Source of the DNA: Candidatus Hydrogenedentota bacterium
GTDB lineage: Bacteria; Hydrogenedentota; Hydrogenedentia; Hydrogenedentales; CAITNO01
Length of the DNA: 34,099 bases
Assembly: GCA_012730045.1 (NCBI GenBank)
Contig: JAAYBR010000100.1
Span: 1 to 34,099, forward strand
Direction: 5' to 3'
Below are positions 1-34,099 of this stretch, in pieces. A model generated the notes under the pieces. The model was not told the origin of the DNA, did no database searches, and was given only the letters and a program-made list of their open reading frames with translations. The translations under genes and the position numbers were made by a program. Each line of letters starts with the position of its first letter. Position 1 is the stretch's first letter.

Positions 1-432
1 CGCCCCCTCTTCCTTTCTGGCACCCCGGCAGGGGTGCGGGACTCCGGGGCCAGCGGGAACCGACGCGTCCTGAACCCCTGCCGGGGTTCTTGAAGAAATG
101 GGGGGGCTGCTGTCCGGTGGTATCGCTACGCTCAACCACCGGCTAGTGTCCTGCATCCCTCCGGGATGCCCAAGACTTTCGCTTTCGGCCATTTCCACGT
201 TTGGCAGAGAAAAACCTTCGGCTTGGGGCGCGGAAGAATACGTCCACTTCATTAGCAGCGAAGCGCGGCCATCTCGTTCCCGCCAGCGCCCCGGCCGACG
301 CGGAAATCTTCTGCCCGGAAGACCTTCCCTCCCCCGCAGCCCCCGGTGAAACCGGACCAGCCCGGGGCTGGTCCGTGAAATGTGCCATATTTTCGGATTC
401 TGCCCGGGTGACCGGCACGAAAGGGTCATGCG
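1..432. other. Non-coding region with hairpins and decayed repeat pieces
   Basis: I see no convincing gene here. Positions 72-89 form a short perfect hairpin (GAACCCC-TGCC-GGGGTTC) and 21-36 hold a similar GC palindrome (CACCCC-GGCA-GGGGTG). A GCATCCC/GGGATGC hairpin lies near 152-170. Positions about 249-293 are a degraded, reverse-oriented copy of the element seen at 5198-5288 and 12537-12586 (AGCGAAGCGCGGC, then ATCTCGTTCCCGCCA). Short open frames across this stretch lack ribosome sites and overlap each other, so I treat them as chance. The last bases (AAAGG about 8 nt before 433) give a plausible ribosome site for the pseudopilin gene. Confidence 0.6.
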
Positions 433-1398
433 ATGAAGAGGCATCATCAGGGATTCACGCTTATTGAGCTGCTGGTCGTCATTGCCATCATCGGCATTCT
501 GGCGGCCATCCTCCTGCCCGCGCTGGCCCGGGCGCGCGAGGCCGCCCGCCGCGCGAGCTGCCAGAACAACCTGAAACAGTTCGGGCTGGTGTACAAGATG
601 TACGCCAACGAGGCCGGCGGCGGGAAGTTCCCGCCCATGCAGTTCGAGGCCTACTCCCTGCGCAACGCCGACATCGCCATCGGCCCCATGGTCCGGGCCA
701 TCTACCCGGAATACATGACGGACCCGTCCATCGCCCTGTGCCCGTCGGACCCGAACAGCACGCTGGAGGACATCCGCAACGATGAGACGGGGCGGCTGGA
801 CATTATGGACGACCCCGAGGCGATTGACATGAGCTACGCCTACATGGGGTGGGTGCTGGACAAATGCGGCGACGACTCCCCCCAGATTGACCTCACCTCC
901 ATCTTCAACATGATGCCGGGCCTGCCCAACAACATGATCCTGGACGACCCGACCGCCACCGGCCCCTACCAGTTCATCGCGCTGTTCACCGCCACGGTGG
1001 CCCAGGTCATCTCCGAGCGCAACAGCCTCTCCGGGGACGACCAGATCCGCGCCGCCAGTTTCCGCGTCGCCGACGACGACAAGAAGGTCCCGGCCTTTAG
1101 CGGGCAGTCCATGGGCAACGGCAGCGGGGACACGATCTACCGTCTGCGCGAGGGCATTGAGCGCTTCCTGATCACGGACGTGAACAACCCCTCCGCAAGT
1201 TCCCAGGCCCAGAGCGACATCTGGGTCATGTTCGACACCGTCTCCAAGAATGTCAAATACTTCAACCATGTGCCCGGCGGGTCCAATGTCCTCTACATGG
1301 ACGGCCATGTCGAGTTCATCCGGTACCCGGGCCGCGTGCCCGCCAACACCGGCATGGCCCTGTTCCTGGGCACGCTGCTGGACCGCACCCGGTCCTGA
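433..1398 (+). CDS. Pseudopilin with prepilin N-terminal methylation domain (DUF1559-like)
   Basis: A 321-residue pseudopilin-type protein. The N-terminus has a short basic leader, then [20 protein letters not shown], the classic class III signal: a prepilin peptidase would cut after the Gly and methylate the Phe, and E at +5 aids assembly. The first ~30 mature residues form the hydrophobic assembly helix, followed by the [18 protein letters not shown] segment typical of the planctomycete/Lentisphaerae DUF1559 group. Near the C-terminus is the [11 protein letters not shown] motif of the family; the spacing from the His is ten residues before DG rather than the usual nine. These proteins are common and multicopy in that group, and the role (type II secretion-like or pilus-like fibre) is not settled. 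ATG at 433 is preceded by AAAGG. Confidence 0.9.
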
Positions 1399-1414
1399 CG
1401 GGGGATAATGCGCA

Positions 1415-1885
1415 ATGGCTGACCGGACAAAAGTCGTGAAGGTGGTCGGGTCGCTGGTGGCCCTGAGTTTCTCCGGGTTGGTGCTCTTTGCCATGTACGG
1501 CCCCGAGGGCTGCGGCCCGTCGGAGGACGAGCTGAAGGTCGTCGCCCAGCTCAACAACCTGGAGGAGCTGATCCAGAAGGGCGGCTACGTCAAGACGATC
1601 ACCCCCATCGAGGAGCGCGACGACCACGGCGACGCCGTCTACGGTTTTCAGGCCGAGATCGAGGATGAGAAAGGCGTGCCCATCGGCCGCCTGCGCTCCA
1701 TGCGCGTCGAGGGCTTCGGCATGATGAAGCCCCGCTTCCTCTGGTACAAGCAGCCGGGCGTCCCCGAGGACTGGCCCCCGCGCGGCGAACGCCGCCGCCG
1801 CGGCGGCGGCGAGCGCCGCGACGGGGAACGCCGTGAAGGCGCGCCGCCCAACGCCCAGCAAAGCGCCCCCCCGCCCGCGCAGTAG
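1415..1885 (+). CDS. Hypothetical membrane-anchored protein with Arg/Gly-rich tail
   Basis: A 156-residue protein that I do not recognise. Residues ~10-28 form one hydrophobic segment (VGSLVALSFSGLVLFAMYG) after a short basic start, so it is probably an N-terminal membrane anchor or uncleaved signal. A charged, mixed alpha/beta-like region follows to about residue 120. The C-terminal ~35 residues are low complexity, rich in Arg, Gly and Glu and then Pro/Ala. It starts 16 nt after the pseudopilin stop and could be cotranscribed with it. The ribosome site is weak (GGGGGAT). The tail has a strongly biased GC repeat, so its exact length may vary between relatives. Confidence 0.7.
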   Translation: MADRTKVVKVVGSLVALSFSGLVLFAMYGPEGCGPSEDELKVVAQLNNLEELIQKGGYVKTITPIEERDDHGDAVYGFQAEIEDEKGVPIGRLRSMRVEGFGMMKPRFLWYKQPGVPEDWPPRGERRRRGGGERRDGERREGAPPNAQQSAPPPAQ

Positions 1886-2614
1886 GCGCAGAGGCGGATA
1901 GTTGGCGGAAACGCAAGGGAACAGGAGGGGAGGGAGGTTTCGCCCGGGCGGCCCCGGGTTCATGTCCCCCATCTCAAATCTCAAATTTGAGATTCTATGG
2001 ATGTTGGGCCGGACACAGACGCAAGCCTCTTCGTGGACTCTCTTTTCGACCTCCCACACTTCCAGGGCAATCACGCTAAAAGGCCTCTCGAGAAACGCCA
2101 GCGACCGGCATGAACGCTCCCCGGATCCGTGATTTGGTGTTTGTTGTCCCAAAGGGGTATCCGCATATTGTCCAAGCAGGCCGCCGCCCATCCCCTCAGC
2201 CCCGGGTCCGCACAACGCGCAGCGCCTTGGAGTGCGGCAGCTTGCTGCCGCCTTTCTTCGCGTGGGCTTGCCCGCGCGGGGGCACACGAAAAATGACGGG
2301 GACCGCGCGTTTCCCCGAGGCCGTCGCGGCACCCCCTGCCGCAATTTCGGCTGCCCCGTTGGGGCATGATCCTTTTGACCCGTTTACCCAGGGCAGGCCT
2401 GGCCCTTCGGGCGGCGGCCTGGCCTGGGCTATATTCGGCAACGCTTTCAGCGTTGGGGAGGTCGGATAGAGGGCAATGAACGCACTCCGCCCAGAAGGTG
2501 TTTGCGGTTTCAGTGCGATTGCCCTGCCCATTTTTCCCGGCCGGGGTGCCCGCCCCGCGGCCTTGTGGTACACTTTGCCCGTTGTTTTGAACCCCCAGAA
2601 GGAGTGTTGGCGCC
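1886..2614. other. Non-coding region rich in palindromes
   Basis: A 729-base stretch with no supported gene. It holds a perfect 18-bp palindrome at 1977-1994 (AATCTCAAATTTGAGATT), a REP-like repeat at 2217-2280, several GGCCTGGCC-type palindromes near 2395-2425 and a CAACGCT/AGCGTTG hairpin at 2439-2455. The last 60 bases probably hold the menB promoter: TGG-TACACT at 2566-2574 resembles an extended -10 box, but I see no good -35. AAGGAG about 10 nt before 2615 is the menB ribosome site. Confidence 0.55.
2217..2280 (+). repeat. REP-like palindromic repeat, copy A
   Basis: This copy has the family core GCGCAGCGCCTTGGAGTGCG, then an imperfect GGCAGC-TT-GCTGCC hairpin, CGCCTTTCTTCGCG and a second hairpin of GGGCTTGCCCGCGC type. 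The same order recurs at 14743-14826, 14921-15066, 18093-18263 and, in reverse, at 18946-19012. It lies between genes. Confidence 0.8.
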
Positions 2615-3439
2615 ATGGCGGACGCGCGGTGGGAGACGGCCCGGGACTATCAGGAAATCCGGTATGAGAAGCGGCCCGGGGTGGCGAAGATCACGATCAA
2701 CCGGCCGCACCGGCGCAACGCCTTCACGCCCCTGACGCTGGACGAGATCAGCGACGCCCTGCGCGATGCGCGGTTTGACCCGGCGGTCGGCGTGGTCCTC
2801 CTCACGGGCGAGGGGCCGCTGGCGTTCTGCTCCGGGGGCGACCAGAAGATCCGGGGCGAGGCGGGCTATGTGGACCCGCAGACGGGGGCGCACCGGCTGA
2901 ATGTGCTGGACCTGCACCGCCAGATACGGACCTGCCCCAAGCCGGTCATCGCCATGGTGGCGGGCTACTGCATCGGCGGGGGGAACATCCTGGCGATGGT
3001 CTGCGACCTGACCATCGCGGCGGACAACGCCATTTTCGGCCAGACGGGCCCCAAGGTGGGCTCCTTCGACGCGGGCTACGGCTCGGCGCACCTCGCGCGG
3101 ATGGTGGGGCAGAAGAAGGCCCGGGAAATCTGGTTCCTCTGCCGCCAGTACACCGCCGCCCAGGCGCTGGAGATGGGCATGGTGAACACCGTGGTGCCCC
3201 TGGACCGGCTGGAGGAGGAGACGCTCCAGTGGTGCTCGGAGATCCTGGAAATGTCGCCCATGGCCCTGCGGTGTATCAAGGCGGCCATGAACGCCGACGA
3301 GGACGGCCAGGCGGGGCTCATGGAGCTGGCGGGCAATGCCACCAGCCTCTTCTACATGTCCGAGGAGGGGCAGGAGGGCCGCAACGCGTTCCTCGAAAAG
3401 CGGCCGCCGAACTTCTCGAAGTTCCCGCGCAACCCCTGA
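2615..3439 (+). CDS. menB: 1,4-dihydroxy-2-naphthoyl-CoA synthase (MenB)
   Basis: A 274-residue crotonase-fold enzyme that closes the second ring of o-succinylbenzoyl-CoA to give 1,4-dihydroxy-2-naphthoyl-CoA in menaquinone synthesis. Visible motifs are FCSGGDQ (residues 71-77), the oxyanion-hole region GYCIGGGN (~118-124), [20 protein letters not shown] (~143-162) and [13 protein letters not shown]. The Gly in QTG is the residue known from bicarbonate-dependent MenB enzymes, and the SFD Asp is the catalytic acid position. The C-terminus ([19 protein letters not shown]) matches the family tail. It is the first gene of a men operon, with menA 11 nt downstream. ATG at 2615 has an AAGGAG ribosome site. 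Confidence 0.96.
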
Positions 3440-3450
3440 GGGGCCCCATC

Positions 3451-4356
3451 ATGACGGACACGGCACCCATCCGGCCGGCCGGGGCGCGCGTCTGGCTGGA
3501 CGCCGCGCGCCCGCGCACGCTGGGCGCGGCGGTGGGGCCGGTGCTGCTGGGGGCGGCGTTCGCGGTGGACGCCGGGGGCGCGCATTTTCCCTCCCTGCTG
3601 GCGGCGCTGGTCTGCGCGCTGCTCCTGCAGGTGGCCGCCAATTTCGCGAATGACTACTACGATTTCCTCAAGGGGGCCGACACGGCGGCGCGGGTGGGGC
3701 CGGTGCGCGCGACGGCCTCCGGGCTGGTGACGCCCGCCCAGATGCGCCGCGCCCTGGCGCTCACGCTGGTGGCGGCGTTTCTGCTGGGCCTGTATCTCGT
3801 CTGGCGGGGCGGCTGGCCCATCCTCGTCATCGGCGTGCTGTCCATGCTCTTCGCCGTCCTCTACACCGGCGGCCCGTATCCCCTGGGCTATCTGGGGCTG
3901 GGCGAGGTCTTCGTGTTTATCTTCTTCGGTCCCGTCGCCGTGGCGGGCACGGCCTATGTGCAGACCCTTTCCTTCGACCCGCTGGCCGCTGTCGCGGGCA
4001 TCGGCCCCGGCCTCTTCTCCGTCGCCATCCTCACGGTGAACAACCTGCGGGACCGGGACGAGGACGGCCGCACGGGCAAGCGGACCCTGGCGGTGCGTTT
4101 CGGCGCGCGCTTCGCGCGGGCGGAGTACGCGCTGTCCCTGCTGGCTGCCCTGCTCGGGGTGCCCGCCCTGCTGTGCGCGCTCCCGGGCGGGCACGGCGGC
4201 GCCTTTGCCGCCCTGCCGGTGCTGGTTCCCGCCATGTTCGCGGTTCGGACCGTCTCCAGGGAGTCCGGGCCGGCCCTCAACCGCATGCTCGGCGGCACGG
4301 GAAAACTGCTGCTGCTGTACAGCCTGCTGTTCGGCGTGGGGTGGGTGCTGTGGTGA
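3451..4356 (+). CDS. menA: 1,4-dihydroxy-2-naphthoate polyprenyltransferase (MenA)
   Basis: A 301-residue UbiA-family integral membrane prenyltransferase that attaches the polyprenyl chain to 1,4-dihydroxy-2-naphthoate, giving demethylmenaquinone. The first Asp-rich motif is NDYYDFLKGAD (residues ~67-77), which binds the Mg-diphosphate. The second is NNLRDRDEDGRTGKRTLAVRFG (split here as NNLRDRDEDG and RTGKRTLAVRFG). The rest is about eight or nine hydrophobic helices. ATG at 3451 lies 11 nt after the menB stop and fits the usual start ARPRTLGAAVGPVLLG. The stop overlaps the GTG start of menC (GTGA), so translation is probably coupled. Confidence 0.95.
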   Translation: MTDTAPIRPAGARVWLDAARPRTLGAAVGPVLLGAAFAVDAGGAHFPSLLAALVCALLLQVAANFANDYYDFLKGADTAARVGPVRATASGLVTPAQMRRALALTLVAAFLLGLYLVWRGGWPILVIGVLSMLFAVLYTGGPYPLGYLGLGEVFVFIFFGPVAVAGTAYVQTLSFDPLAAVAGIGPGLFSVAILTVNNLRDRDEDGRTGKRTLAVRFGARFARAEYALSLLAALLGVPALLCALPGGHGGAFAALPVLVPAMFAVRTVSRESGPALNRMLGGTGKLLLLYSLLFGVGWVLW

Positions 4357-5576
4357 CGCCCGGCACCACGCGGGTGTACCGCTACGACCTGCCGCTGGCC
4401 CATCCGATACGGGTGGGCGGGGAAAGGCTGACCCGCCGCCGGGGGTGGCTGCTGGAGCGCGCGGACGCCGACGGCCGCTCCGCCTGGGGAGAGGCCGCGC
4501 CGCTGCCGGGGTTCAGCCGCGAAACCTTTGACGAGGCCGGGGAGGCGTTGATCGCCCTGTGCGGGGTGTCCGACCCGCCCCCCGATGCGCCGCCCTCTGT
4601 CCGTTTCGCCCTGCATGCGGCACGGGGGGATACCACGCCGTCAGGGAACCGCCGCGTGCCGCTCTGCGCCCTGCTGCGGGGGGACGGGTTGCAGAAGCTC
4701 ACACACGCCTCCGAAGCGGCCAGAAAGGGATATCAGGCGGTCAAACTGAAAGTCGGCGGGAGAAAGGTGGGGGAGGACATCGCGTTGACGTTGAACCTGC
4801 GCAGCTTGCTGGGACCGGACGTGGCCCTGCGGCTCGACGCCAACCGGGCGTGGTCGTTGGAGGAGGCGGAGTCCTTTCTGCGGCGCATGACGGAGGAAGA
4901 TGCGCTCTATGCGCTGGCGCCGGTGGCCTTCATCGAGGAACCCCTCAAGGACTGGACGCAGCTGCCCGAACTGGCGGCGCGGACGCGGGTTCCGCTGGCG
5001 TTGGACGAGACCCTTCAGGAGGTCTTCGGCGCGCGCACCGTCTCGCGCGCGGAGGCGGAGCCGGCCTTTCGGGCGGCATCGTGCTGGGTGTGGAAGCCCA
5101 CCCTCTGCGGACCCTTTCAGACGGCCACAGAGGACTGGCTGTCTTTCGGTCCCCCCTTCAGGGGGGGGATTCGCGGAAGCGAACCGGGGGATGTTCCGGA
5201 CTCCGGGGCGTTGGCGGGAACGGGATTGCTTCGCTTCGCTCGCAATGACCTCGAAAAAACACGTCATTGCGAGCGAAGCGAAGCAATCTCATGCTCGCGA
5301 AAACGCGGCATCCCCCCTCATGGGGAGATCAAGACCGGCCTTCCGGTGGTGTCCAGCGCCGCCTATGAGTCGGGCGTGGGCATTGCGGCGATTGTTAGGG
5401 CGGCAGGGGAAGGCGTTCTCGAACCCTTGGGCATTGACACCTACGCGGCGCTGGCGGAGGACGTGCTGGCGCGGCGGCTGCCACTGGACGCGCCGGAGGC
5501 GGAAGTGGGCGGGGTGCTGGCCGCCGCCGGGGACGTGGTCCGTTCACGGCTGGAATTGGTTCATGAGCACCCCTGA
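4353..5576 (+). CDS. menC: o-succinylbenzoate synthase (MenC) with in-frame repeat insertion
   Basis: An enolase-superfamily enzyme that dehydrates SHCHC to o-succinylbenzoate. I choose the GTG at 4353, which overlaps the menA stop as GTGA; the product is 407 residues. Catalytic residues are visible: KLK (K131/K133), the metal ligands D162 (RLDANRAWS), E195 (FIEEPLKD) and D218 (ALDETL), and K248 (WKPTL). After DWLS (~residue 264) about 61 residues of repeat-derived sequence (5145-5327) interrupt the barrel before VVSSAAYESGVGIAA resumes the family pattern. Without the insert the length (~346) is normal. The frame stays open, so the gene may still be active; the insert falls in the loop after the Lys-bearing strand. 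The 3' end overlaps menE by 14 nt. Confidence 0.92.
   Translation: MTPGTTRVYRYDLPLAHPIRVGGERLTRRRGWLLERADADGRSAWGEAAPLPGFSRETFDEAGEALIALCGVSDPPPDAPPSVRFALHAARGDTTPSGNRRVPLCALLRGDGLQKLTHASEAARKGYQAVKLKVGGRKVGEDIALTLNLRSLLGPDVALRLDANRAWSLEEAESFLRRMTEEDALYALAPVAFIEEPLKDWTQLPELAARTRVPLALDETLQEVFGARTVSRAEAEPAFRAASCWVWKPTLCGPFQTATEDWLSFGPPFRGGIRGSEPGDVPDSGALAGTGLLRFARNDLEKTRHCERSEAISCSRKRGIPPHGEIKTGLPVVSSAAYESGVGIAAIVRAAGEGVLEPLGIDTYAALAEDVLARRLPLDAPEAEVGGVLAAAGDVVRSRLELVHEHP
5145..5327. repeat. Palindromic repeat element inserted in menC
   Basis: About 183 bp (61 codons) foreign to the MenC family. Its core is a perfect inverted repeat with 26-nt arms, 5224-5249 and 5263-5288, separated by 13 nt (arm start GATTGCTTCGCTTCGCTCGC). 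The outer left part includes CCCCCCTTCAGGGGGGG and GGGGCGTTGGCGGGAACG. The same core occurs near 12537-12822 and, decayed, at 249-293. Its length is a multiple of three and one frame is stop-free, so menC is not broken. An mRNA hairpin of 26 bp would form inside the coding region. Confidence 0.88.
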
Positions 5577-12902: not shown

Positions 12903-14726
12903 ATGGTGATCCTTGCGGTGGAAGGCGGTGGCACGGCCACCCGGGCGGGACTGTACGGGGGGGCGACGCTGCTGGCGGAGGGGACGGGCGGTCCGGCGAA
13001 TCCGGTGGCCTACGGCCTGTCGCGGACTGTGGACACCCTGGTGGAGCTGGCGGAGCGGCTGCTGCCGGAGGGTGCCGCTCCGGACTGTGTCTGTCTGGCC
13101 CTTGCGGGGGCGGCGGAGCCGTTGCTGCGGGCCGCCCTGGCGCGCGGGACGGCGCAGCGGCTGGGCGCGGGGAGGGTCGTGGCCACCACGGACCTGCACC
13201 CGCTGCTGTTCGCCAATGCCGGGAAGGGTGCGGGGATTCTGACCATCGCGGGCACGGGGTCTTCCGTGCTGGGGAAGGACGCCTTCGGCTGCACCGCCCG
13301 GGCGGGCGGGCGGGGGGCGCTTTTCAGCGACGACGGCAGCGCCTACCGGCTGGCCGTGGAGGGCCTGCGCGCGGCGGCCGCGATGGCCGACGGTCTGGGG
13401 CCGGAAACCCCGCTGCTGGAAATGCTGATGGAGGGGGCGGGGGCGGCGTCTCTGGAGGGGCTTGTCGCCTGGTCTGCCCGCGCTGACAAGCGCGCGGTCG
13501 CGGCGCTGGCCCCCTTGGTCACAGCGGCTGCGGAGGAGGGGGACTATGTCGCCGCAGGCTGCCTGGAGGAGCAGGCCCGCAGGCTGGCGGGGCAGACCGC
13601 CGTGGTGGCGCGGCGTCTCGGGCTGGAGGACGGCTACCGCGTGTTCATGCACGGCGGGCTCCTGCTCAACGCGCCCCGGTACGCGGAGGCGTTCCGGCAG
13701 TGCTTGGACATGTACAGCGAGGCCCAGTTCATGACCTGCGCCCTGACAGGCCATGCCGCCGTGGCGGCGTGGGCGGAAACACTGGACCGGGTGCCGGAAT
13801 GGGCGTCGGAGTGGCGCGGGGACGCCCCCGGGACGCGTCATCCGGAGCTGCCGCCCACAGAGCGGCGCGCCGACAGCGGGCCGTTCCTCGACGCGCTGGA
13901 CGCGGCGGGCATCGTGGACCTCATGATCCGTCGGGAGGCGGACACCTGCGCAGCGGTGGCGGCGTGTGCGTCTGAAATCGCCCGGGTGGTGGGCCTGGCC
14001 GGACGCGTGCTGGAGGGCGGGGGCCGTATCTTCTACATCGGGGCGGGCACCAGCGGGCGCCTCGGCGTGCTGGACGCCTCGGAGTGTCCGCCGACCTTCG
14101 GTGTGTCCCCGGACCGGGTTATCGGCATCATCGCGGGGGGTGACACGGCCCTGCGGAACAGCCTGGAGGGGGAGGAGGACCGTCCCGAGCACGGCGGCCG
14201 CGACTTGGCGGCGCACAGCGCCGGCCCCGGCGATCTCGTGGTGGGCATTGCGGCGTCCGGTGCCACGCCCTACGTGGCGGGGGCCCTGGAGCACGCCCGG
14301 GCGGCGGGCGCGCCCACCGTGCTCGTCTGCTGCGTGCCCCGCCCGGCGATTGCGGCGGACACCGTGATCGCCCTGGACACGGGACCAGAGGTCCTCGCCG
14401 GGTCCACCCGCCTGCGCGCGGGCACGGCCACCAAAATGGTCCTCAACATGATCAGCACGGGGGGGATGACCCTGGCCGGATACGTTTGCCGGGGCCTCAT
14501 GGTGGAGATGAGGCCGACCAACGCCAAACTGCGCCGCCGGGCCGCGCGGATCGTCGCCGAACTCGGCGGATGCCCTGAGGCGGACGCTGCGCACCTCTTG
14601 GAAAGCGCCGGATGGCACATCCCCACGGCGGTGGTGATGGCCGTCCTGAAAGTGCCGTCGGAAGAGGCGCGACGGCGGTTGCAGGCCGCCGGAGGCCGCC
14701 TGCGCGGGATATTGGGCGAAACCTGA
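12903..14726 (+). CDS. murQ: Fused amino-sugar kinase / N-acetylmuramic acid 6-phosphate etherase
   Basis: A 607-residue two-domain enzyme. Residues 1 to ~292 are a BadF/BadG/NagK-type ASKHA kinase with phosphate loops VEGGGTATRAG and IAGTGSSVLG and an adenosine-side FMHGGLLLN. Residues ~320-607 are a MurQ etherase of the SIS fold: IFYIGAGTSGRLGVLDASEC (residues ~376-395) followed by PPTFG, the catalytic Glu in ASEC, the second Glu in EGEED, then GIAASGATPYV and EMRPTNAK. MurQ removes the lactyl ether of MurNAc-6-phosphate to give GlcNAc-6-phosphate. The kinase half could supply MurNAc-6-P (as MurK does in clostridia) or phosphorylate GlcNAc. With anmK 4.5 kb away this suggests cell-wall recycling. 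The ATG at 12903 has an AAAGGAG site at short spacing; GTG at 12906 is possible. Confidence 0.92.
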   Translation: MVILAVEGGGTATRAGLYGGATLLAEGTGGPANPVAYGLSRTVDTLVELAERLLPEGAAPDCVCLALAGAAEPLLRAALARGTAQRLGAGRVVATTDLHPLLFANAGKGAGILTIAGTGSSVLGKDAFGCTARAGGRGALFSDDGSAYRLAVEGLRAAAAMADGLGPETPLLEMLMEGAGAASLEGLVAWSARADKRAVAALAPLVTAAAEEGDYVAAGCLEEQARRLAGQTAVVARRLGLEDGYRVFMHGGLLLNAPRYAEAFRQCLDMYSEAQFMTCALTGHAAVAAWAETLDRVPEWASEWRGDAPGTRHPELPPTERRADSGPFLDALDAAGIVDLMIRREADTCAAVAACASEIARVVGLAGRVLEGGGRIFYIGAGTSGRLGVLDASECPPTFGVSPDRVIGIIAGGDTALRNSLEGEEDRPEHGGRDLAAHSAGPGDLVVGIAASGATPYVAGALEHARAAGAPTVLVCCVPRPAIAADTVIALDTGPEVLAGSTRLRAGTATKMVLNMISTGGMTLAGYVCRGLMVEMRPTNAKLRRRAARIVAELGGCPEADAAHLLESAGWHIPTAVVMAVLKVPSEEARRRLQAAGGRLRGILGET

Positions 14727-14742: not shown

Positions 14743-14826
14743 GAGCCTGGGTGCGGCAGAGCGCGCAGCGCCTTGGAGTGCGGCGGCTTGCCGCCGCCTT
14801 TCTTCCCGCAAGCTCAGCTTGCGGGT
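14743..14826 (+). repeat. REP-like palindromic repeat, copy B
   Basis: This copy begins GCCTGGGTGCGGCAGAGC, then the core GCGCAGCGCCTTGGAGTGCG, the GGCGGC-TT-GCCGCC hairpin, CGCCTTTCTT and a terminal CCCGCAAGCT-C-AGCTTGCGGG hairpin. It is in the same orientation as copies A, C (right half) and D (right half). Confidence 0.88.
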
Positions 14827-14920: not shown

Positions 14921-15066
14921 GCGCGGGCAAGCCTACGCACTCCAAGGCGCGCGCCGCGCGCGGGAGGACCGCCGTAGCTTTTGTTGGCCTGGGCGTTGCA
15001 GTGCGCGCAGCGCCTTGGAGTGCGGCGGCTTGCCGCCGCCTTTCTTCCCGCAGGCTCGCCTGCGGG
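14921..15066. repeat. REP-like inverted pair (REPIN-like), copy C
   Basis: Two repeat halves face each other. The left, reversed half contains GCACTCCAAGGCGCGCGC. A spacer of GGGAGGACCGCCGTAGCTTT type follows. The right half has GCGCAGCGCCTTGGAGTGCG, the GGCGGC-TT-GCCGCC hairpin and a CCCGCAGGC-TC-GCCTGCGGG hairpin. The same paired arrangement and spacer occur at 18093-18263. Confidence 0.88.
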
Positions 15067-15585: not shown

Positions 15586-17970
15586 ATGGTGCGGTTCAAT
15601 TGGTTCATGCAGGGATGGCTCGGAAATGTAAACCGGAAAACACGGACGGCCGGGCTGTTCTTGATTGTCTGCTGGGTCCTCGCCCTTTCCGGATGTCCGA
15701 AGACTGTTCTTGTGACGGTTCCCGATCTGGCGGGCATGACGCGGGCCGAGAGCGAAGCCCTTCTCGGGCGGCTTCAGTTTTCCGTCGGGGAGGTCACGGA
15801 GGCTTACAGCCCCTCGGCGCCGGCGGGAAGTGTGATCGGACAAAGTCCGGCAGCCGGGGAACGCGTAGCTCGGGGAGCCTCGGTAAGCATGGTCCTTTCA
15901 AAGGGGCCGGAGCCGCCCTCCACGGAGGCCGTGACTGTTCCCGATCTCCGGGGAATGACCGAGGCGGAAGGCATGTCTTCCATCCAGGCTCTTGGTTTGG
16001 TCGTGGGCACTGTGGGACACCAGTACGATAGCGGCGTTCCCGCAGGACATGTCCTTGAGCAGTTGCCGGCCGCCGGATCACGCGTGGCCCCCGGAGCGAA
16101 GGTGTCCTTCGTGTTGTCCCGTGGACCGCGTCTCGTCCCCGATCTCTTGGGGAGGGACCAGTACTCCGCCGCAATGGCCCTAAGGGACGCGGACCTCGCG
16201 TGGGGAAATGTCACCTATGAGCACAGCGAAACGATCCCCGTGGGCCGCGTGTGCGGACAGAGTCCCGCGCCAGGAACCCCCATTTCCGTGATGGCGTATG
16301 TGAACATCGTAATTTCCAACGGCATCATGCCGGTGCCCGTCCCCAATGTGGTCGGCATGACCCAGGATGCGGCGACAGAAGCGATTGTCGCCGCTGGACT
16401 TGTCCTCGGAGGAGTGGATGGACAATTCAATGCCACCATTCCCGCTGGCACGGTGATGAGCCAAAATCCGACGGCGGGCACGAACAAAGTTCCAGGATCC
16501 CCTGTCAGCCTCGTTGTCTCCCTTGGGCTTCCCCGGGTGCCGAATGTGGTCGGCCTGACCCGTCTGTTGGCGGAGGCGGCCATTCTGCGGGCGAGTCTGG
16601 CCGTGGGGGAGGTGACGGAGCAGCACGATGAGACCGTGCCTGCGGGCATAGTCATGGACCAGTATCCCGAGCCCGGAACGGTCAGCAATCCGGGAAGACA
16701 GGTGCGCCTGATGGTGTCGGCGGGGCCGGAACCGGTCCCGGTGCCCTATGTGGTGGGGATCCCCCAGGCGCAGGCGGAAGCCGCCATTGCGGCCGCGCGG
16801 CTGGCTGTTGGAAGCGTCTCCGTGCAGTTCAGCGTCTCCGTGCCGGAGGGCAGCGTGATCAGCCAGGACCCCGTCGGCGGCACGGAGGTTGCCCCGGGAA
16901 CCGAAGTGCATCTGGTCGTTTGCGGAAAGCCCACCATTCCAAACGTGGTCGGAAAGCGCGCCATAACCGATATTCAGGCAAGATTTTCCTCTGACACGAG
17001 AGCGCCCGCCGCTTTCTCACCGGACGGCCAAGTGGTAATCACCAATACCGCGGGAAACGCCGCGAAACTGTGGAACGTAACCTCCAGACAGGCACTGTTT
17101 ACCCTGTCCCATGCGGAACCGGTCACCTCTGTGGCCTTCTCCCCCCAGGGAGACCGGGTGATCACCGGCAGCGAAGACTGGAAAGCCAAGATTTGGGACG
17201 TGCAGACCGGCGCCCTGCTGAAGACGCTGGTGGGGCATACCGGAAAAGTCCTGGCGGTGGCGTTCAGCCCTGACGGCACAACGGTGCTTACCGGATCGGA
17301 GGACAAAACCGCCCGCGTTTGGAACGCATCCACAGGGGGAATCGTGCAGACTTTTGCGGATCATGACCGCGGCGTAAGTTCTGTGGATTACGCGCCAAAC
17401 GGGGCCACGGTATATACCGCCTGCGGAAAAGTCTATGCTTGGAGCGTCGCCTCGGGAGTGGGCAGCGAGATGCAATCCTATGGTTACACCGTGGATTGTT
17501 CCCCAGACGGACGCTGGTTGTTGGTTTCCGGTGTCTCTCTCGGCCCTTCCGATGTGTTGGATTTGCAGACAGGAGCCGTGACCCAAGAAATTGACATGGT
17601 GGAGGCGCGCTTTTCGCCGAACGGGAAAGAGATATACGGCGACGGTAGGTTCAGCGGCGGAATTCTCTTGGACGTCTCCACAGGCTTCACGTTGCAGAGA
17701 TACCCTCTCCCTGTGCTGTGCGTGTCTTCAGATGGGAAAAGCGTCCTCTGTGAGGCTATGTTTACTGATGGTGTTCGGATATTCATATCGAACAAACTTG
17801 CCGCCGCACAGGAGACGCTCCTACGCTCAGGATTGTTTCCTGGATCTGTCACCTCCCAGCTTCACGATAGCATTCCCAGAGGACATGTGGTACATCAGAG
17901 CCCGTTGGCCGGAGGTCCGGCAGAGGTCGGGAGCACGGTGGACCTGATCCTGTCCGGGGTCACGGAATGA
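15586..17970 (+). CDS. PASTA-repeat lipoprotein with nested WD40 beta-propeller
   Basis: A 794-residue lipoprotein. The signal peptide ends in LALSGC with the lipidated Cys at 37. Six complete PASTA modules follow (starts ~44, 116, 182, 251, 318 and 385), each with a VPDL/VPNVVG opening and a SQxPxxGxxVxxGxxV-type end. A seventh begins at IPNVVGKRA (450-458), is broken by a WD40 domain (~460-738) and resumes at AAQETLLRSGLFPGSV to the end. Seven WD blades are visible, with repeated AFSPDG and W(N/D)V starts. PASTA modules bind peptidoglycan or beta-lactam-like ligands in kinases and PBPs; here no kinase or transpeptidase domain is present, so a wall-anchored scaffold is my inference. AAGGAG precedes the ATG. 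Codon use is less GC3-biased than in neighbours. Confidence 0.9.
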   Translation: MVRFNWFMQGWLGNVNRKTRTAGLFLIVCWVLALSGCPKTVLVTVPDLAGMTRAESEALLGRLQFSVGEVTEAYSPSAPAGSVIGQSPAAGERVARGASVSMVLSKGPEPPSTEAVTVPDLRGMTEAEGMSSIQALGLVVGTVGHQYDSGVPAGHVLEQLPAAGSRVAPGAKVSFVLSRGPRLVPDLLGRDQYSAAMALRDADLAWGNVTYEHSETIPVGRVCGQSPAPGTPISVMAYVNIVISNGIMPVPVPNVVGMTQDAATEAIVAAGLVLGGVDGQFNATIPAGTVMSQNPTAGTNKVPGSPVSLVVSLGLPRVPNVVGLTRLLAEAAILRASLAVGEVTEQHDETVPAGIVMDQYPEPGTVSNPGRQVRLMVSAGPEPVPVPYVVGIPQAQAEAAIAAARLAVGSVSVQFSVSVPEGSVISQDPVGGTEVAPGTEVHLVVCGKPTIPNVVGKRAITDIQARFSSDTRAPAAFSPDGQVVITNTAGNAAKLWNVTSRQALFTLSHAEPVTSVAFSPQGDRVITGSEDWKAKIWDVQTGALLKTLVGHTGKVLAVAFSPDGTTVLTGSEDKTARVWNASTGGIVQTFADHDRGVSSVDYAPNGATVYTACGKVYAWSVASGVGSEMQSYGYTVDCSPDGRWLLVSGVSLGPSDVLDLQTGAVTQEIDMVEARFSPNGKEIYGDGRFSGGILLDVSTGFTLQRYPLPVLCVSSDGKSVLCEAMFTDGVRIFISNKLAAAQETLLRSGLFPGSVTSQLHDSIPRGHVVHQSPLAGGPAEVGSTVDLILSGVTE

Positions 17971-18347
17971 CCGTGTACTGATTCCCCAACAACGAGGACC
18001 GATCCAAGCCTCCGGGATGTTGGCACCATGAGGGCCAGCCTTCCGGGGGCATTGTTTTCTTCCGATAAGGCACGGGGGACGTCCTGCCGCCCGCGTGCAA
18101 GCCCGCGCGAAGGAAGGCGCAGGCAAGCCTACGCACTCCAAGGCGCGCGTTGCGCGCGGGAGGACCGTCGCAGCTTTTGTTCGCCTGGGTGCGGCAGAGC
18201 GCGCAGCGCCTTGGAGTGCGGCGGCTTGCCGCCGCCTTTCTTCCCGCAGGCTCGCCTGAGGGTTCTTCTCCACCTCAGCCGACATGCCCGCCTGAAGAAG
18301 TGGTATCCTCTCACGGAACCGTGAAACTTGTCGGGAGCCCTGCGGAC
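17971..18347. other. Intergenic region with a REP-like pair
   Basis: A 377-base gap between the PASTA-WD40 gene and the RAYT gene. Its main content is the paired repeat at 18093-18263. I see no gene. The stretch 18264-18347 leads directly into the transposase start at 18348. Confidence 0.6.
18093..18263. repeat. REP-like inverted pair (REPIN-like), copy D
   Basis: The left reversed half (GCAAGCCTACGCACTCCAAG) is followed by the GGGAGGACCG..GCAGCTTTTG spacer, GCCTGGGTGCGGCAGAGCGC and the right half with the GGCGGC-TT-GCCGCC hairpin and a CCCGCAGGC-TC-GCCTG end. It sits 85 bp upstream of the RAYT gene. Confidence 0.9.
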
Positions 18348-18945: not shown

Positions 18946-19012
18946 GCCGCGCGGGCAAGCCCGCGCGAAGAAAGGCGGCGGCAAGCCACCGCACTCCAAG
19001 GCGCTGCGGCGG
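18946..19012 (-). repeat. REP-like palindromic repeat, copy E (reverse)
   Basis: The sequence GCGCGGGCAAGCCCGCGCG, AAGAAAGGCGGCGGCAAGCC and GCACTCCAAGGCGCTGCG is the reverse complement of the family core. It starts 17 bp after the extended RAYT reading frame ends, so the transposase lies between copies D and E. Confidence 0.88.
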
Positions 19013-25886: not shown

Positions 25887-26058
25887 GGGTACGAAAACAG
25901 GCAGGGATGCCGTTTTTCGCGGCTTGAAAGCGGGACCGTCCCGTTTCTGCTGGTGAAACTTGGAAAAAGAGTGTACTATCTAGTCTGCGAGGCCGGAGGC
26001 GGTCCCCGGGATGGGCTGCCGCGCCGGGTGGACAGAAACTCAAGGTGAGCGTATGGAA

Positions 26059-26694
26059 ATGTCAACGGCGAGTCGTAAGGTTCTGACCGCGTGCGTGGCG
26101 CTCTTTGTGCTGGCGGCTGTGACCGGGTGTGATGTGATCAGCCCCGTCTACATGCCCGACAAGGCGCTGTCCAAGGTGGTGCGCGCCGCAGTGGGCAAGC
26201 CGCTGGGGGTGGTGACGCGCGCGGACATGGCCAAGCTCAAGGAACTCCAGGCTGCCGGGATGGGCGTTGTTGACCTGCAGGGGCTCCAATACTGCGAGTC
26301 GCTGTCCGTGCTCAATCTGAGCGGCAACGCCGTGGTGAGTCTGGCCCCTCTGGCGGGCCTGCGGAATCTTGCCCGGGTGAACCTCAGCGACAACCAGCTG
26401 GGCAGCGTTGAGGCGCTGTCCGGGTGGTTCTATCTCGAGGAGCTTCAACTCTACGGCGAGCAGAACCTGATCTGGGACTGGCGTCCGCTGCTGGCGAACG
26501 TGCAGGCCGGCGGGCTGGGCGCGGGGAACATCCTCGTGCTGCCCACGGCGACCACGCTGGACTCGAACAGCAACCCCCTTCCCGGATTTGCCGAGGCGCA
26601 GAAAGCCCTGATTGAGCAGGATGTCAAGGTTACCTACGGCGCCCCGGGCGAGACGACGGATGGCACGACGGACGAAACGCAGACCGGGTCCTGA
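26059..26694 (+). CDS. Leucine-rich-repeat lipoprotein
   Basis: A 211-residue lipoprotein. The lipobox is AVTGC with Cys24. After an N-terminal cap (YMPDKALSKVVRAAVGK and ADMAKLKELQAAG), about four internalin-like LRRs follow: GVVDLQGLQYCESLSVLNLS, GNAVVSLAPLAGLRNLARVN, LSDNQLGSVEALSGWFYLEE and LQLYGEQNLIWDWRPLLANV. The C-terminal tail is Thr/Asp/Glu rich. LRR proteins act in binding; the partner is unknown. I choose ATG 26059 because AAGGTGAG then has a 9-nt spacing; ATG 26053 would have 3. TACTAT at 25974-25979 may be the -10 box, with a poor -35. VWA lipoproteins follow on the same strand. Confidence 0.85.
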   Translation: MSTASRKVLTACVALFVLAAVTGCDVISPVYMPDKALSKVVRAAVGKPLGVVTRADMAKLKELQAAGMGVVDLQGLQYCESLSVLNLSGNAVVSLAPLAGLRNLARVNLSDNQLGSVEALSGWFYLEELQLYGEQNLIWDWRPLLANVQAGGLGAGNILVLPTATTLDSNSNPLPGFAEAQKALIEQDVKVTYGAPGETTDGTTDETQTGS

Positions 26695-26787
26695 CGGCAT
26701 GCCGGGTGTTTCCTGGAGAGTCCCGAGGGCGGGTCGTTGCAAGCGGCGGATGCCGGCGGGCGGCGTCAACTTTTAAGGTGTAGCACA

Positions 26788-29700
26788 ATGAGCATGGCCA
26801 TGCCTCGGTGGTGCGCGGTTGTCTTTGTGGGGGCCGCGCTGCTGGCGCTCGGGGGGTGCGGGAACAATGTGGACCTCAAGGTGGAACCCGGGGCGCTCGC
26901 CTTTGGCACCGACCGGTCCGAGGTCTTCTTCACCCTGCTGAATGACGGCGTCTTTGCCGCGGAGTGGACGCTGGAGGAGGTGGTCCGGGAGAGCCAGGAG
27001 GCCGAATGGCAGCCGGCCGACGTGGCCTGGTTTGCGGCGGACAGCGCCGGGGGCAGGCTCAGGCGGGACGAGTCGGCGCGGGTTTCCCTGACCGCGAACC
27101 GGGCACTGGTCGGCGCCGGCACCTACAGCAACACCGGCGTGCGGATCACCTCGGGCAAGTTTGTCCAGGTGCTGCCCGTGTCCATCATCGTCGAGGCGTC
27201 CCTTCGGGTGTTGCCCGCGCGGATCGCCCTGACCCCCGGCAGCACGGGGGCGCGTTTCACGGTTTTCAACGTCGGCAACCAGCAGCTCTCGTGGTCTTTG
27301 ATGTATTTGGGGTCCAGCACGGTTCCTGGGGATGCCGTGGCCCTGCCATCGGACATCGTGGCCACCCCGGCCGCGGGGGACATCAGCGCGGGCGATCTGG
27401 CCCAGGTCGAAATCGCCTGGACAACGGAACGCGCCGACTTTAACCTGCTGGTGGACTCCGCCGGCGGGCAGGCCGTGGTGCGCATCGTGTTCGGAGAGCC
27501 GCTGCCGGGGCTGGAAGTCACGCCGGAAGTGCTGACGCTGTACTATGACCCGTCCGGGGAGGGGGAGCAGCCCGCCTCCAAACTCACCATTGAAAACACC
27601 GGCACGGTCGCCCGCAGCTGGACCATTTCGGCGGCGGACCTGATGAACCCCGCCGCCGCGCCCGCCATCGCCGCCGCGCCCAACCAGGGGGCGACGCTTC
27701 CCGGGGAGACGCAGGAAGTCACGGTGCGGGTCACGGACCCCGAGCTGATCCTGTCCGGATCGGGCAACTACGAGCTCCAGATGCGTTCCGGCGAGGAGGG
27801 GTTCCTTGCCGTTCCGCTGGTGCTTGAGATCGTGTCCCTTCCCGACATCGCCGTTTCCGATCCGCCGAACCCGGAGTCGGGGCGGCCGGAAGTGACGTTC
27901 ATGGACGTTTTGGACTTCGGCCGGGAACAGGTGGTGGGCGAGTTCTGGGTGGCCAACATCGGGCCGGTCGGGTCCGACCTTTTCTTCAAAGTCGTGTCCG
28001 ACGATGACACGTCCGCCGCGCCGCTGATCACGAGCATCACGCCGCGGCAGGGGGACACCAACCAGCGCCCCGGGACGGATTTCTTCCGGGACAACACGTC
28101 CAACACGCTCATAGACGGCACCCCCGTTTATGTGACGGTGGACCGCTCCGTGATGACGGAGGACGTGGAGTACCGGAAGGTCACGGTGGAGGCGTGGAAC
28201 CAGGACTACACCCAGCGGCTGGACTCGGTGGAGCCCTATGAGCTTTCCGTGCGTGTGGAACGCCCGCCACTTACCGTGGAGGGCGCCACCAACCGGAGCC
28301 GTCCGCCGTTCCTCAACCGCTTTGTGTTCCTGCTCCGCGACACGACGAGCCGGGTCATCCCCACCCGCACGCCGGAGGACCTCGCGCGGCTCAGCTTCGA
28401 TGTCGCGGAGGATGGTGTCTACATTGACTGGAACGAGGCCACCAAGAGCATCACGGGGCCGGAGAGCCTGCGCACCAACATGGTCCTGATGCTGGACTAC
28501 ACCGGGAGCATGTATTACGCCGGAACGACCGACCCGGCCAACCCGCTCGCGCCCGGCGAGGCGATCGCGCAGGTCAAGACGGCGGCCCTTCGGTTCATTG
28601 ACGACCTGCCCCCGGGCACCCGCCTGGCCATCATGTACCACAGCGACCGGCAGCAGCAGGACCGGTTCATCTTCCCGTTCAGCACGGACAAGACGGCTCT
28701 GAAGAACGCCCTGGCGGCGTTTCATCTCTCCCCGGCGCTGCACGGCACGTCCACCGTGTGGGACGCGGTGGAGGAGGCCGTGCTGCGGGTGGCCCTCGAG
28801 GATCCCGGCGATGTGCTGGCCTTCGACGATGCGGACGTGCGCGCCGTGGTTTTCCTTACCGACGGGCGCGACAATTCCTCGCTGTCCGACGCGTCCTCCG
28901 TGTCCACCCTGGCACAGGATCTGCGCGTGCGCCTGTATCCCGTCTCCTACGCCCCCAGTTCACCCGTGGAGACCACGGACATGATTGTTGCGGCCGGGGA
29001 GACCGGCGGGCACCACTATGGCGGCGGCAACGTGCGCGCCTTGAACGCGCTGCTTGGGAACCAGCGTTCCCTCACTCTGGACCCGGCGGAGAGCACCTCC
29101 GCAGACCAGGTGGCCTTCCTCGTGTCGAACACGGGCACCGCCAATCTTTCCTGGAGCGCCGCCCAGGCGGAAACGAAACCCTGGATCGTGTCGCTCACCC
29201 CCGAGGCGGGCATTGTCCCCCCCGGCGGGAGCACCCGTGTGACCGTGACGGTGAATCCGGCCCTCGCGGGCGCGCCGCCGCTGAACAGCGTTCGGGGCGC
29301 GCTGAACGTGGACTCCAACGACGGCGCCGCCACGGTCGAGGTGCTGATGACCCTGACCGAGGACAATTCGGCGCTGCGGGGCCTCACCGCCGCACTGATG
29401 GACGAGCCCGGAACCATACTGGGCGAGCTTCGGAACCAGGTTGTCCTCGCCTATGTCAGCCCGCGCCAAGCCCCCGGAACGTACACCATCCGGGTGAAGT
29501 ATGAGCAGCCCAACGGCGAGTCTGTCACGGGCTTCTTCGAGAAGGACGGCGTCTTCACATCCGGCGATGTGCGCGCCGGGCAGCTCTCCCTGACCACGGC
29601 GGGCATTGTGGAGGACCTGGACGCGGCGGACCTGGCGTCCGCAGTCCGGGCGGAGGCCTATCTGCGCGCCGACTACGTGCCGCGCGGCGTCAGCCAGTTC

Positions 29701-30579
29701 CGATTCCGCTTCCTTCCGTCGTTCCCGGTGGATGCGCCGGCCGCCGCGCGTGCGGCCTTTGCCGCGACGGCGGTGCTGGACGCCGACCTCGCGCCCGGCG
29801 GGCTGCTCGCCTCGGGCAGCCAGACCTCGTCCTGGCGCCTGGTCCGGGAGCGCGACCAGATTTACACCCTGCTGACTGAGCAGGAGAACTGCCTGCCCTA
29901 TGCGTCCTTCGGCAACCTGCTCCGCATCCGGATCACGGGCATAAAGGGGTATGTGGACGCCTGCGAGGCGGCCGGCGTTGAGCCGCGCATCCTCCTGGGC
30001 ATGCGCGCGGAAAACCAGATTTACGTCCGTCCCGCCGGGCCGGGAAGGCCCAGCGAGAGCATCTACTTCCTGTATCCAACGGGTCCGCTGTCGCCCAGCC
30101 GGCCGCTGGAGATCGGGGGATACTCCGACACCGCCTCGCCCGCGCGCACCATGCTTGACCTGTTCTCCACGTATCTGGATCCCGAAGCGCCGAACGCCTG
30201 GGACATGGACGAGGACGGACTGCCCGACTTTCAGGATCCGGCGATTGACGACGACGGTTTGCCCGGCCCGCTGACGTTCCCGGCGCAGCTTGACTTGACG
30301 CTGGCTCCGGCGACGGTAAGCCTGATCAACGGGCGGCTGGACACGTTCTCCTGGACTGCGGAGCTCGTGCCGGAGGCCCCTGTGGCGGCGCTGCTGGAGG
30401 GCCGCTTCACCCTGGACTTCTCGGGGGCTGCGACGAGTGTGGCGCCCGGAGAGTCCACGTCGTTCACCGTGGATGTGGACCGGACAGGGCTGCCCAGCGG
30501 CCTTTATGAGGCCACGCTGCTGATCCAGACCGATGTCTTCCAGACGGAGCAGGTGAGGGTCGTTTTCCGCATCTCCTGA
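26788..30579 (+). CDS. Large VWA lipoprotein with Ig-like (BACON/ASH-type) repeats
   Basis: A 1263-residue lipoprotein. The lipobox is LALGGC with Cys24. Four Ig-like modules, each with a (L/V)xVxPxxLxFG-type strand, precede the VWA; a NRFVFLLRD segment then leads into it (~565-760). The MIDAS-like site is DYTGSM, with the later T and D in GTSTVWD and FLTDGRD. A further Ig-like module (LTLDPAESTSADQVAFLVSN), a domain with NQVVLAYVSPRQAPGTYTIR, a DMDEDGLPDFQDPAIDDDG Ca-type loop (~1139-1156) and a final Ig-like module follow. The MIDAS suggests divalent-metal-dependent adhesion or binding. AAGGTG lies about 8 nt before the ATG at 26788. Its neighbour at 30626 has the same architecture. Confidence 0.9.
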   Translation: MSMAMPRWCAVVFVGAALLALGGCGNNVDLKVEPGALAFGTDRSEVFFTLLNDGVFAAEWTLEEVVRESQEAEWQPADVAWFAADSAGGRLRRDESARVSLTANRALVGAGTYSNTGVRITSGKFVQVLPVSIIVEASLRVLPARIALTPGSTGARFTVFNVGNQQLSWSLMYLGSSTVPGDAVALPSDIVATPAAGDISAGDLAQVEIAWTTERADFNLLVDSAGGQAVVRIVFGEPLPGLEVTPEVLTLYYDPSGEGEQPASKLTIENTGTVARSWTISAADLMNPAAAPAIAAAPNQGATLPGETQEVTVRVTDPELILSGSGNYELQMRSGEEGFLAVPLVLEIVSLPDIAVSDPPNPESGRPEVTFMDVLDFGREQVVGEFWVANIGPVGSDLFFKVVSDDDTSAAPLITSITPRQGDTNQRPGTDFFRDNTSNTLIDGTPVYVTVDRSVMTEDVEYRKVTVEAWNQDYTQRLDSVEPYELSVRVERPPLTVEGATNRSRPPFLNRFVFLLRDTTSRVIPTRTPEDLARLSFDVAEDGVYIDWNEATKSITGPESLRTNMVLMLDYTGSMYYAGTTDPANPLAPGEAIAQVKTAALRFIDDLPPGTRLAIMYHSDRQQQDRFIFPFSTDKTALKNALAAFHLSPALHGTSTVWDAVEEAVLRVALEDPGDVLAFDDADVRAVVFLTDGRDNSSLSDASSVSTLAQDLRVRLYPVSYAPSSPVETTDMIVAAGETGGHHYGGGNVRALNALLGNQRSLTLDPAESTSADQVAFLVSNTGTANLSWSAAQAETKPWIVSLTPEAGIVPPGGSTRVTVTVNPALAGAPPLNSVRGALNVDSNDGAATVEVLMTLTEDNSALRGLTAALMDEPGTILGELRNQVVLAYVSPRQAPGTYTIRVKYEQPNGESVTGFFEKDGVFTSGDVRAGQLSLTTAGIVEDLDAADLASAVRAEAYLRADYVPRGVSQFRFRFLPSFPVDAPAAARAAFAATAVLDADLAPGGLLASGSQTSSWRLVRERDQIYTLLTEQENCLPYASFGNLLRIRITGIKGYVDACEAAGVEPRILLGMRAENQIYVRPAGPGRPSESIYFLYPTGPLSPSRPLEIGGYSDTASPARTMLDLFSTYLDPEAPNAWDMDEDGLPDFQDPAIDDDGLPGPLTFPAQLDLTLAPATVSLINGRLDTFSWTAELVPEAPVAALLEGRFTLDFSGAATSVAPGESTSFTVDVDRTGLPSGLYEATLLIQTDVFQTEQVRVVFRIS

Positions 30580-33600: not shown

Positions 33601-34099
33601 GACGGACGGACGGCGCACGACGCCCCCCGGGGAGACGGGTCCCGTGGGCGATTTTCTTGAGGGCACCCGGGTGCGGCTCATGCCGATCGGCTGGGGCACG
33701 GACGTCCAGGCCAACCCGCTCATTGAACTGGCCTCGCAGTCCGGCGGCCATTACTACGCCGCAGAAAGCCGGATGACCGAAACGGGCGAGAAGCGGCCCA
33801 CCCTTTCCGGACTGCTTAAGCGCTGCGGTGTCGAGGCCGGCTTCGAGACCCAGTCGCTTCCCCGTGACCTCCAGGCCCACTTCTCCTTCGGCTACGTGTC
33901 CCTGAACGAGGCGGCGTCGGTTCTTCTGGATGCGCGGATAACGTCCTACGACAAGAACCCCGAGGTCACGGGGGACTACTTTGTGGAGCAGGTGCCCACG
34001 GGCACCTACGCCAACGACGTCCGGCTTGGCCAGATCGGCATGAAGAGCGAGGGCATTTCCGGCGGCTCCGCCGTGGTGCGCCTCTATGCCGACTACATG
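30626..34099 (+). CDS. Second large VWA lipoprotein, runs off the window
   Basis: The frame stays open to the last base (at least 1158 residues) and is a paralogue of the gene before it, 46 nt away with AAGGA as ribosome site. The lipobox is ALGAGC (Cys ~21). About seven Ig-like modules of PxxLxFG type follow in the first ~800 residues, such as LNVTPETLDFGLNALEQTVT and FSVSPPALDFG. The RANFLLRDSAYTIFPK segment then precedes the VWA, with a complete MIDAS: DFSGSM at D855, a later T in NGATALLP and AVTDGRR. After it comes FSFGYVSLNEAASVLLDARI and a C-terminal part cut by the window edge. I expect a Ca-loop beyond the edge by analogy, which I cannot see. Confidence 0.88.
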   Translation, partial: MFRATRCMIMVGLAAAAALGAGCTWRPVLSVTPVTVALGNGVSDGTFRVANTGGGALRVTVSEDLPWVALRAPSGETVSPYTATVRQDVLVLQVVLVEDGIPEGELEVRGEIRISSNAGEETVIVSARRETEAVLNVTPETLDFGLNALEQTVTVTNRGSAALNWTLGIPANQVWLGATPVAGTLAFGERAEVTVRVNRGNLAASAEPYSAPLQFVSNGGNAQVTATMQVPTFSVSPPALDFGALSENTTRTQGIVVQNRSAGPIPLQISAVTTDGAGWLAVGDTAPVLPASTSLQVPVSASSAGLQPGTYTGTIRVAAPSLDFSLEIAVSALVQAFRLAPVSVDFGTITEPATRTVTVENLGQSPLDWSASIPPVAAGWLAADPASGTVPGAGTVTLTLTATPGAVASGSYTAAVSVDVAGVVTQVAAAMTRPKPAELKVSPSEVDFGVSGTEVTVGIWNEGIGTITWGIDTTAFPAWLSLAPVDGAGQAGGTVSGDLTDTVTLRVDRTLAPEGQDIFEHAFQVTAAGDSTTAVPVVVRASAPKLPEFAVVGEGVDVNNIPFLLFDIQETTQTFVIQNTGYGRLSWRVDENQTIPNWVTSISPLQGEVEPGRQATITVTVNREGLPRTGAVYALQLASNDPARPLALLELQVRVPYTITIGVKPESIAFGRFANTAIVEVCNQGDPGEYLNFQIVSNQPDWLFVDPGFGRSLGSPAGIPKDWRPISVAIDRSKIPGTGASAKLTVSATEVPTDAIPPEPVEITVSVDLAPLTIQGAVPTLRCPSLIRANFLLRDSAYTIFPKLLDDPADALFHYDLANVDAVVLEDSLPLDLDETEVYVRKNEGLRFTVLIMMDFSGSMKAAAEKLVEDGDLPGGLADPLLELYRRTIGPLIAALPGHYRVALGVFSERDQSQPLRLIYGADAANPGLANEPFVKNKDVLQYRLDTITVVDNGATALLPAITSAASTLFLLDSDEILVPFDASEEYVAVAVTDGRRTTPPGETGPVGDFLEGTRVRLMPIGWGTDVQANPLIELASQSGGHYYAAESRMTETGEKRPTLSGLLKRCGVEAGFETQSLPRDLQAHFSFGYVSLNEAASVLLDARITSYDKNPEVTGDYFVEQVPTGTYANDVRLGQIGMKSEGISGGSAVVRLYADYM

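Follow-up and report, generated by a model that had tools for sequence, protein, structure and literature searches.

Organization of the gene and its product

The open reading frame at positions 15586-17970 on the + strand of the window, i.e. the whole stretch of 34,099 nucleotides that was analysed, comprises 794 codons and encodes a protein of 794 aa, with the coordinates as given in the original prediction. Its ATG start codon is preceded by AGGAGA. By inspection of the translation, the N-terminal hydrophobic signal ends in LALSGC, with Cys37 as the predicted lipidated residue, so that signal peptide, lipobox and cysteine, which together define a bacterial lipoprotein, are all found here, in line with the lipoprotein signal that had been proposed. 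The features of the gene are as follows:

15586..15696, + strand: signal peptide with lipobox LALSGC, residues 1-37 (translation, by inspection)
15718..15909, + strand: PASTA module 1, residues 45-108 (self-HMM; Pfam PF03793)
15937..16128, + strand: PASTA module 2, residues 118-181 (Pfam and self-HMM)
16135..16326, + strand: PASTA module 3, residues 184-247 (Pfam and self-HMM)
16339..16527, + strand: PASTA module 4, residues 252-314 (Pfam and self-HMM)
16537..16728, + strand: PASTA module 5, residues 318-381 (Pfam and self-HMM)
16741..16929, + strand: PASTA module 6, residues 386-448 (Pfam and self-HMM; block pLDDT 81-98 in model 2)
16936..16962, + strand: putative strand 1 of PASTA module 7, with the sequence IPNVVGKRA, at residues 451-459 (DSSP bridge; profile positions 1-9)
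16963..17796, + strand: putatively nested seven-bladed WD40 propeller, residues 460-737 (Pfam, motifs, model 2, Foldseek)
17797..17967, + strand: second part of PASTA module 7, with the helix and the strands after it, residues 738-794 (DSSP of model 2; profile positions 10-62)

Signal peptide, PASTA and WD40 account for the entire protein and leave no space for a kinase, which agrees with the earlier description of PASTA modules and a propeller with no enzyme domain. The protein scores 267.9 bits with the Stk1/PknB kinase model NF033483, below the equivalog cut-off of 450. Three other kinase-less PASTA strings (L031, L141 and L131) exceed this cut-off with 507, 505 and 586 bits, respectively, so that automatic annotation may label them as kinases.

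The seventh PASTA module is split in sequence

The PASTA family PF03793 matches the protein in seven stretches with a total of 305 bits, compared with a Pfam cut-off of 23.2 (E 6e-93). A profile built from the PASTA modules of the protein itself (self-HMM) gave six full PASTA matches, followed by four WD40 matches (residues 476-627) and a partial PASTA match of 70 bits at residues 739-791, which covers profile positions 10-62 only and retains the motif HVVHQSPLAGG; a second half of module 7 located behind the propeller had indeed been predicted here. The missing profile positions 1-9 correspond to IPNVVGKRA at residues 451-459, on the other side of the propeller, where the start of module 7 had been anticipated, albeit one residue too early (450-458). 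This start lies 65 residues past the start of module 6, similar to the spacing of the other modules (66-73 residues), and the profile coverage of the first half ends at position 9 while that of the second starts at position 10, so that the two are exactly complementary, with 278-279 residues between them.

The complementarity was assessed with an independent PASTA HMM trained on 476 modules, all from other proteins. The joined halves of module 7 reached 65.5 bits, compared with 50.9 bits for the C-terminal half alone, a gain of 14.6 bits, and 69-88 bits for the intact modules 1-6. When random 9-mers of the propeller were placed before the second half instead, the 200 controls did not exceed 57.2 bits, with gains of at most 6.3, and the contiguous stretch 730-794 yielded 52.2 bits, indicating on the basis of sequence that the first strand of module 7 precedes the propeller. 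Judged by these scores, the split of module 7 around the propeller is more than chance.

In a plain tandem arrangement, by contrast, the last PASTA module would be an independent fold in which VRIFIS (730-735) serves as strand 1, and IPNVVGKRA would be the vestige of a deleted module. Such an order is usual in the Hydrogenedentes family, the segment VRIFISNKLAAAQETLLRSGL is as long as an intact PASTA start, and some MAFFT settings align the first strands of other modules at VRIFISNKLAAAQETLLRSGL. However, VRIFISNKL adds almost nothing to the score of the second half (52.2 versus 50.9 bits), whereas IPNVVGKRA adds 14.6 bits, and tandem relatives retain both the last propeller strand and the first PASTA strand (...TAKLWAI-TVPVPYLI...). 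Together with the model and the relative from another genus described below, this makes a tandem arrangement quite unlikely.

A predicted seven-bladed WD40 propeller between the two halves

The WD40 family of Pfam matches the protein with 105.5 bits, compared with a cut-off of 27 (E 8e-31), and three of the blades pass the cut-off alone. A blade motif, S/A-P/S-D/Q/N-G, occurs seven times (residues 478, 519, 561, 603, 639, 677 and 714) with a spacing of 36-42 residues. The later blades have degenerate sequences, and are supported by this periodicity and by the structure model.

Two AlphaFold2 runs were performed on residues 384-794, with alignments of relatives collected from genomes. Model 2 has a mean pLDDT of 90.0 and a pTM of 0.77, with pLDDT values mostly between 86 and 98 over the propeller blades. 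In this model, residues 475-734 contain 27 propeller strands, and one more at 460-463, immediately behind the first strand of PASTA module 7, brings the total to 28, or four for each of seven blades. Blade 7 probably receives its outer strand from the N-terminal side, as is usual for WD40 propellers; according to the model, residues 460-463 would provide this putative closing strand, which lies within a block with a pLDDT of 62. The best match of the propeller in the PDB, as identified by Foldseek, is 5yzv_B, a prokaryotic seven-bladed WD40 domain (TMt 0.82). Seven motifs, 28 modelled strands and this structural match thus agree with the seven blades that had been counted between the halves of module 7.

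Structure models of the junctions

Since module 6 is intact and was included in both models, it serves as an internal control for module 7. In module 6, a helix (394-403) is followed by strands at 407-414, 423-428 and 440-446, and the second half of module 7 matches this pattern in model 2 with a helix at 737-747 and strands at 751-759, 768-772 and 784-791 (H354-364, E368-376, E385-389 and E401-408 in the DSSP output), all within blocks with a pLDDT of 76-88. Furthermore, DSSP assigns an isolated bridge just before the VP/IP motif in both modules (residue 385 for module 6, residue 450 for module 7). Because the secondary structure of module 7 mirrors that of module 6, we infer that residues 451-456 pack against 739-791 as one PASTA fold. 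The first strands of other modules were never set before the propeller by MAFFT, so that no alignment row backs this contact, and the alignment used for the models would, if at all, favour the tandem reading. Against the latter, residues 729/730-734 form a strand of five to six residues in both models, which resembles strand 3 of the other blades and differs from the first strand of the intact module 6, where only isolated bridges are seen, and blade 7 would lose its third strand without 730-734. Complementary halves, the gain in score upon joining them and the modelled strand pattern therefore all argue for the nesting of the propeller in module 7 that was originally predicted.

The junctions are the least confident parts of the models, with block pLDDT values of 62-76 in model 2 (62 for residues 454-473) and below 50 at residues 456-462 and 466-469 in model 1. 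The value of 62 in model 2 would be expected if the insertion were degenerate, such that module 7 is unfolded, its halves are relics and the propeller sits on flexible junctions. The degenerate sequence of the later blades and a G+C content of 0.53 in blades 5-7, compared with 0.65 in PASTA modules 1-6, would also fit with such decay. However, the reading frame is open through both PASTA/propeller junctions, the second half has kept HVVHQSPLAGG and its 70-bit match to the self-HMM, and its helix and strands are predicted with the pLDDT of 76-88 mentioned above, so that a degenerate module 7 is considered unlikely.

Relatives and a probable second nested case

Matches were obtained in all 40 genomes searched, many of them being long PASTA strings. 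Among the fetched loci of the Hydrogenedentes family, 25 distinct proteins carry both PASTA and WD40 domains, and these stem from five genomes (G000, G002, G007, G012 and G015) in three genera. The combination of a PASTA string and a propeller in the absence of an enzyme had originally been regarded as unusual, a view that does not hold in light of these 25 proteins. Nearly all of them are plain tandems, with the propeller preceding the PASTA modules in 20 of the 25 and the PASTA modules coming first in the rest. In only two, the 794-aa protein and L131 of G012 (Candidatus Hydrogenedentes MAG bin-0815, CAIJOU010000183), is the propeller preceded by an isolated first strand of a PASTA module. 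Thus, the pairing of PASTA with WD40 is ordinary in the Hydrogenedentes family, while nesting is rare and found in only one other genus.

L131, which belongs to this other genus, has a lipobox (LTGC) and twelve PASTA modules, followed by a lone TVPDLTGLK and then by WD40 blades. Its contig ends inside the propeller, before any second PASTA half, and the remainder of the gene was sought, but not found. Within the family, the propellers of the two proteins are mutual best matches outside their own genomes, and they are sisters in a tree of 93 propellers with a support of 100/97, where the bootstrap is not fully settled; the propeller closest to this pair in the tree, G035 L222, shows no nesting. 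The simplest reading is a single insertion that predates the split of the two genera. Retention of a lone first strand in a second genus speaks against a tandem with a vestigial IPNVVGKRA, and likewise against a degenerate insertion. A fusion of two genes by misassembly or binning could be suspected since the assembly is fragmented (155 contigs), but the join is in frame and at complementary profile positions, and the first junction and a sister propeller recur in a genome of another genus that was assembled independently, making such an artefact extremely improbable.

A search for the junction in 68 genomes of the order revealed no nested relative outside the family, the first scan of genome contigs with the whole protein as query returned no relative, and no locus in plasmid records covers 80% of the 794-aa protein. 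In the tree, the WD40 propellers of L211 (JAKPRU010000654, labelled Omnitrophota) fall among those of Hydrogenedentes, with which they are 56% identical, reflecting either transfer or a binning error.

Comparison with known systems

The tandem WD40-PASTA proteins of Hydrogenedentes (e.g. G000:C136, G015:C513 and G012:C62) have the same domain types as the 794-aa protein and N-termini resembling signal peptides, and those scanned are also devoid of an enzyme domain. By contrast, their seven or 14 blades are located before or after the PASTA string, never within a module, and many end with an EF-hand-like pair and a Cys-cluster/transmembrane/Arg tail and lack a lipobox. L131 shares the lipobox, the PASTA string, the lone first strand and the sister propeller with the 794-aa protein, but has twelve PASTA modules instead of six complete ones. 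The PASTA kinases PknB, PrkC and StkP, as well as penicillin-binding proteins with PASTA domains such as PBP2x, have the PASTA family in common with the 794-aa protein, and the kinases also share the extracytoplasmic string of modules, whereas the 794-aa protein has a propeller and no kinase or transpeptidase domain. The WD40 domain of the PkwA kinase (5yzv) and the prokaryotic WD40 protein 2ymu rank among the top matches of the propeller in structure and sequence and, going by their entries, lie outside any PASTA fold. We found no account of a PASTA module with a nested propeller in the literature (open-licence full texts), which does not in itself prove novelty.

Proposed architecture and role

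WD40 propellers typically serve as platforms for protein binding. We consider it probable, with some reservation, that the 794-aa protein is an exported lipoprotein with a peptidoglycan-binding PASTA stalk and a rigid terminal binding propeller that is held by two crossings. Following export, the protein would be anchored by a lipid at Cys37, and its PASTA stalk would bind to, or run along, peptidoglycan. The complete seven-bladed propeller would be inserted into the loop between strand 1 and helix 1 of the terminal PASTA module. Because the first strand of the propeller is the outer one of the last blade, the two ends of the propeller would adjoin each other, so that a loop can accommodate it while the host fold stays closed. 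Two crossings in place of one flexible linker may keep the propeller rigid and fix its direction at the end of the stalk. There, close to the cell wall, it would most likely act as a platform to which proteins, or other partners, bind.

Binding of muropeptides by PASTA has been established for PknB and PrkC, and PASTA strings are extended (PMC3601408). On account of this known role of PASTA, the suggestion that the protein may be a wall-anchored sensor or scaffold is plausible by analogy. Of three PASTA modules in PrkC, just one binds the muropeptide (PMC3601408), and binding of peptidoglycan is therefore not to be assumed for a PASTA string.

A more general idea, put forward only tentatively and with more doubt than confidence, is that the strand-1/helix-1 loop of PASTA accepts whole domains, and that Hydrogenedentes use it to mount rigid heads on peptidoglycan-bound stalks. 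If so, the nested propeller lipoproteins would be a maintained example of a new mode of receptor display on the bacterial wall. Provided that the nesting itself is correct, the small PASTA fold can accommodate a whole domain between strand 1 and the helix, offering a natural template for placing a rigid binding domain on a wall-binding stalk. In L034 (G000:C138, ORF 2-4894), the PASTA module at residues ~630-714 contains ~22 extra residues in the loop between the first strand and the helix, the same loop as that of the nested propeller, indicating that this loop tolerates insertions. The relatives also point to an expanded and uncharacterised set of putatively exported PASTA and PASTA+WD40 proteins in Hydrogenedentes, which are known almost only from metagenomes.

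Neighbourhood and further observations

The nearest annotated upstream gene (12903-14726 of the window) encodes an N-acetylglucosamine-kinase-like (BadF/BadG) domain fused to an N-acetylmuramic acid 6-phosphate etherase. It ends ~860 bases upstream, with repeats in between, and might hint at a cell-wall context for the 794-aa protein. Further downstream, at 26737-30579 and from 30626 to the end of the window at 34099, lie two ORFs of very large size that encode BACON/HYDIN-like Ig domains, with an LRR protein next to them (26011-26694).

About 35 PASTA proteins (e.g. L135:1055-5041, L003:1-3684 and L031:2546-6982) share a conserved C-terminal tail, often placed after an EF-hand-like pair, in which a Cys cluster is followed by ~12 residues, a K/R-rich segment, a transmembrane stretch (GDLFLAGLxLxxL) and an Arg-rich end. 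A profile of the tail found 1-26 copies per genome in 17 of 17 genomes of the family. No NCBIfam model matched the tail convincingly, and it looks like an unnamed C-terminal sorting signal. The 794-aa protein does not carry this tail and has a lipobox instead.

A recent mobile insertion was also considered and rejected: the shift in G+C is mild, and by eye the joints show no sequence resembling a target duplication. Separately, an intergenic repeat with GCACTCCAAGGCGC occurs in the window at 2222-2235, 14768-14781, 14937-14950, 15010-15023, 18133-18146, 18206-18219 and 18991-19004, often as inverted pairs. The genome contains 68 exact copies of GCACTCCAAGGCGC, compared with none of the reversed control, and the repeat is best described as a REP-like element.
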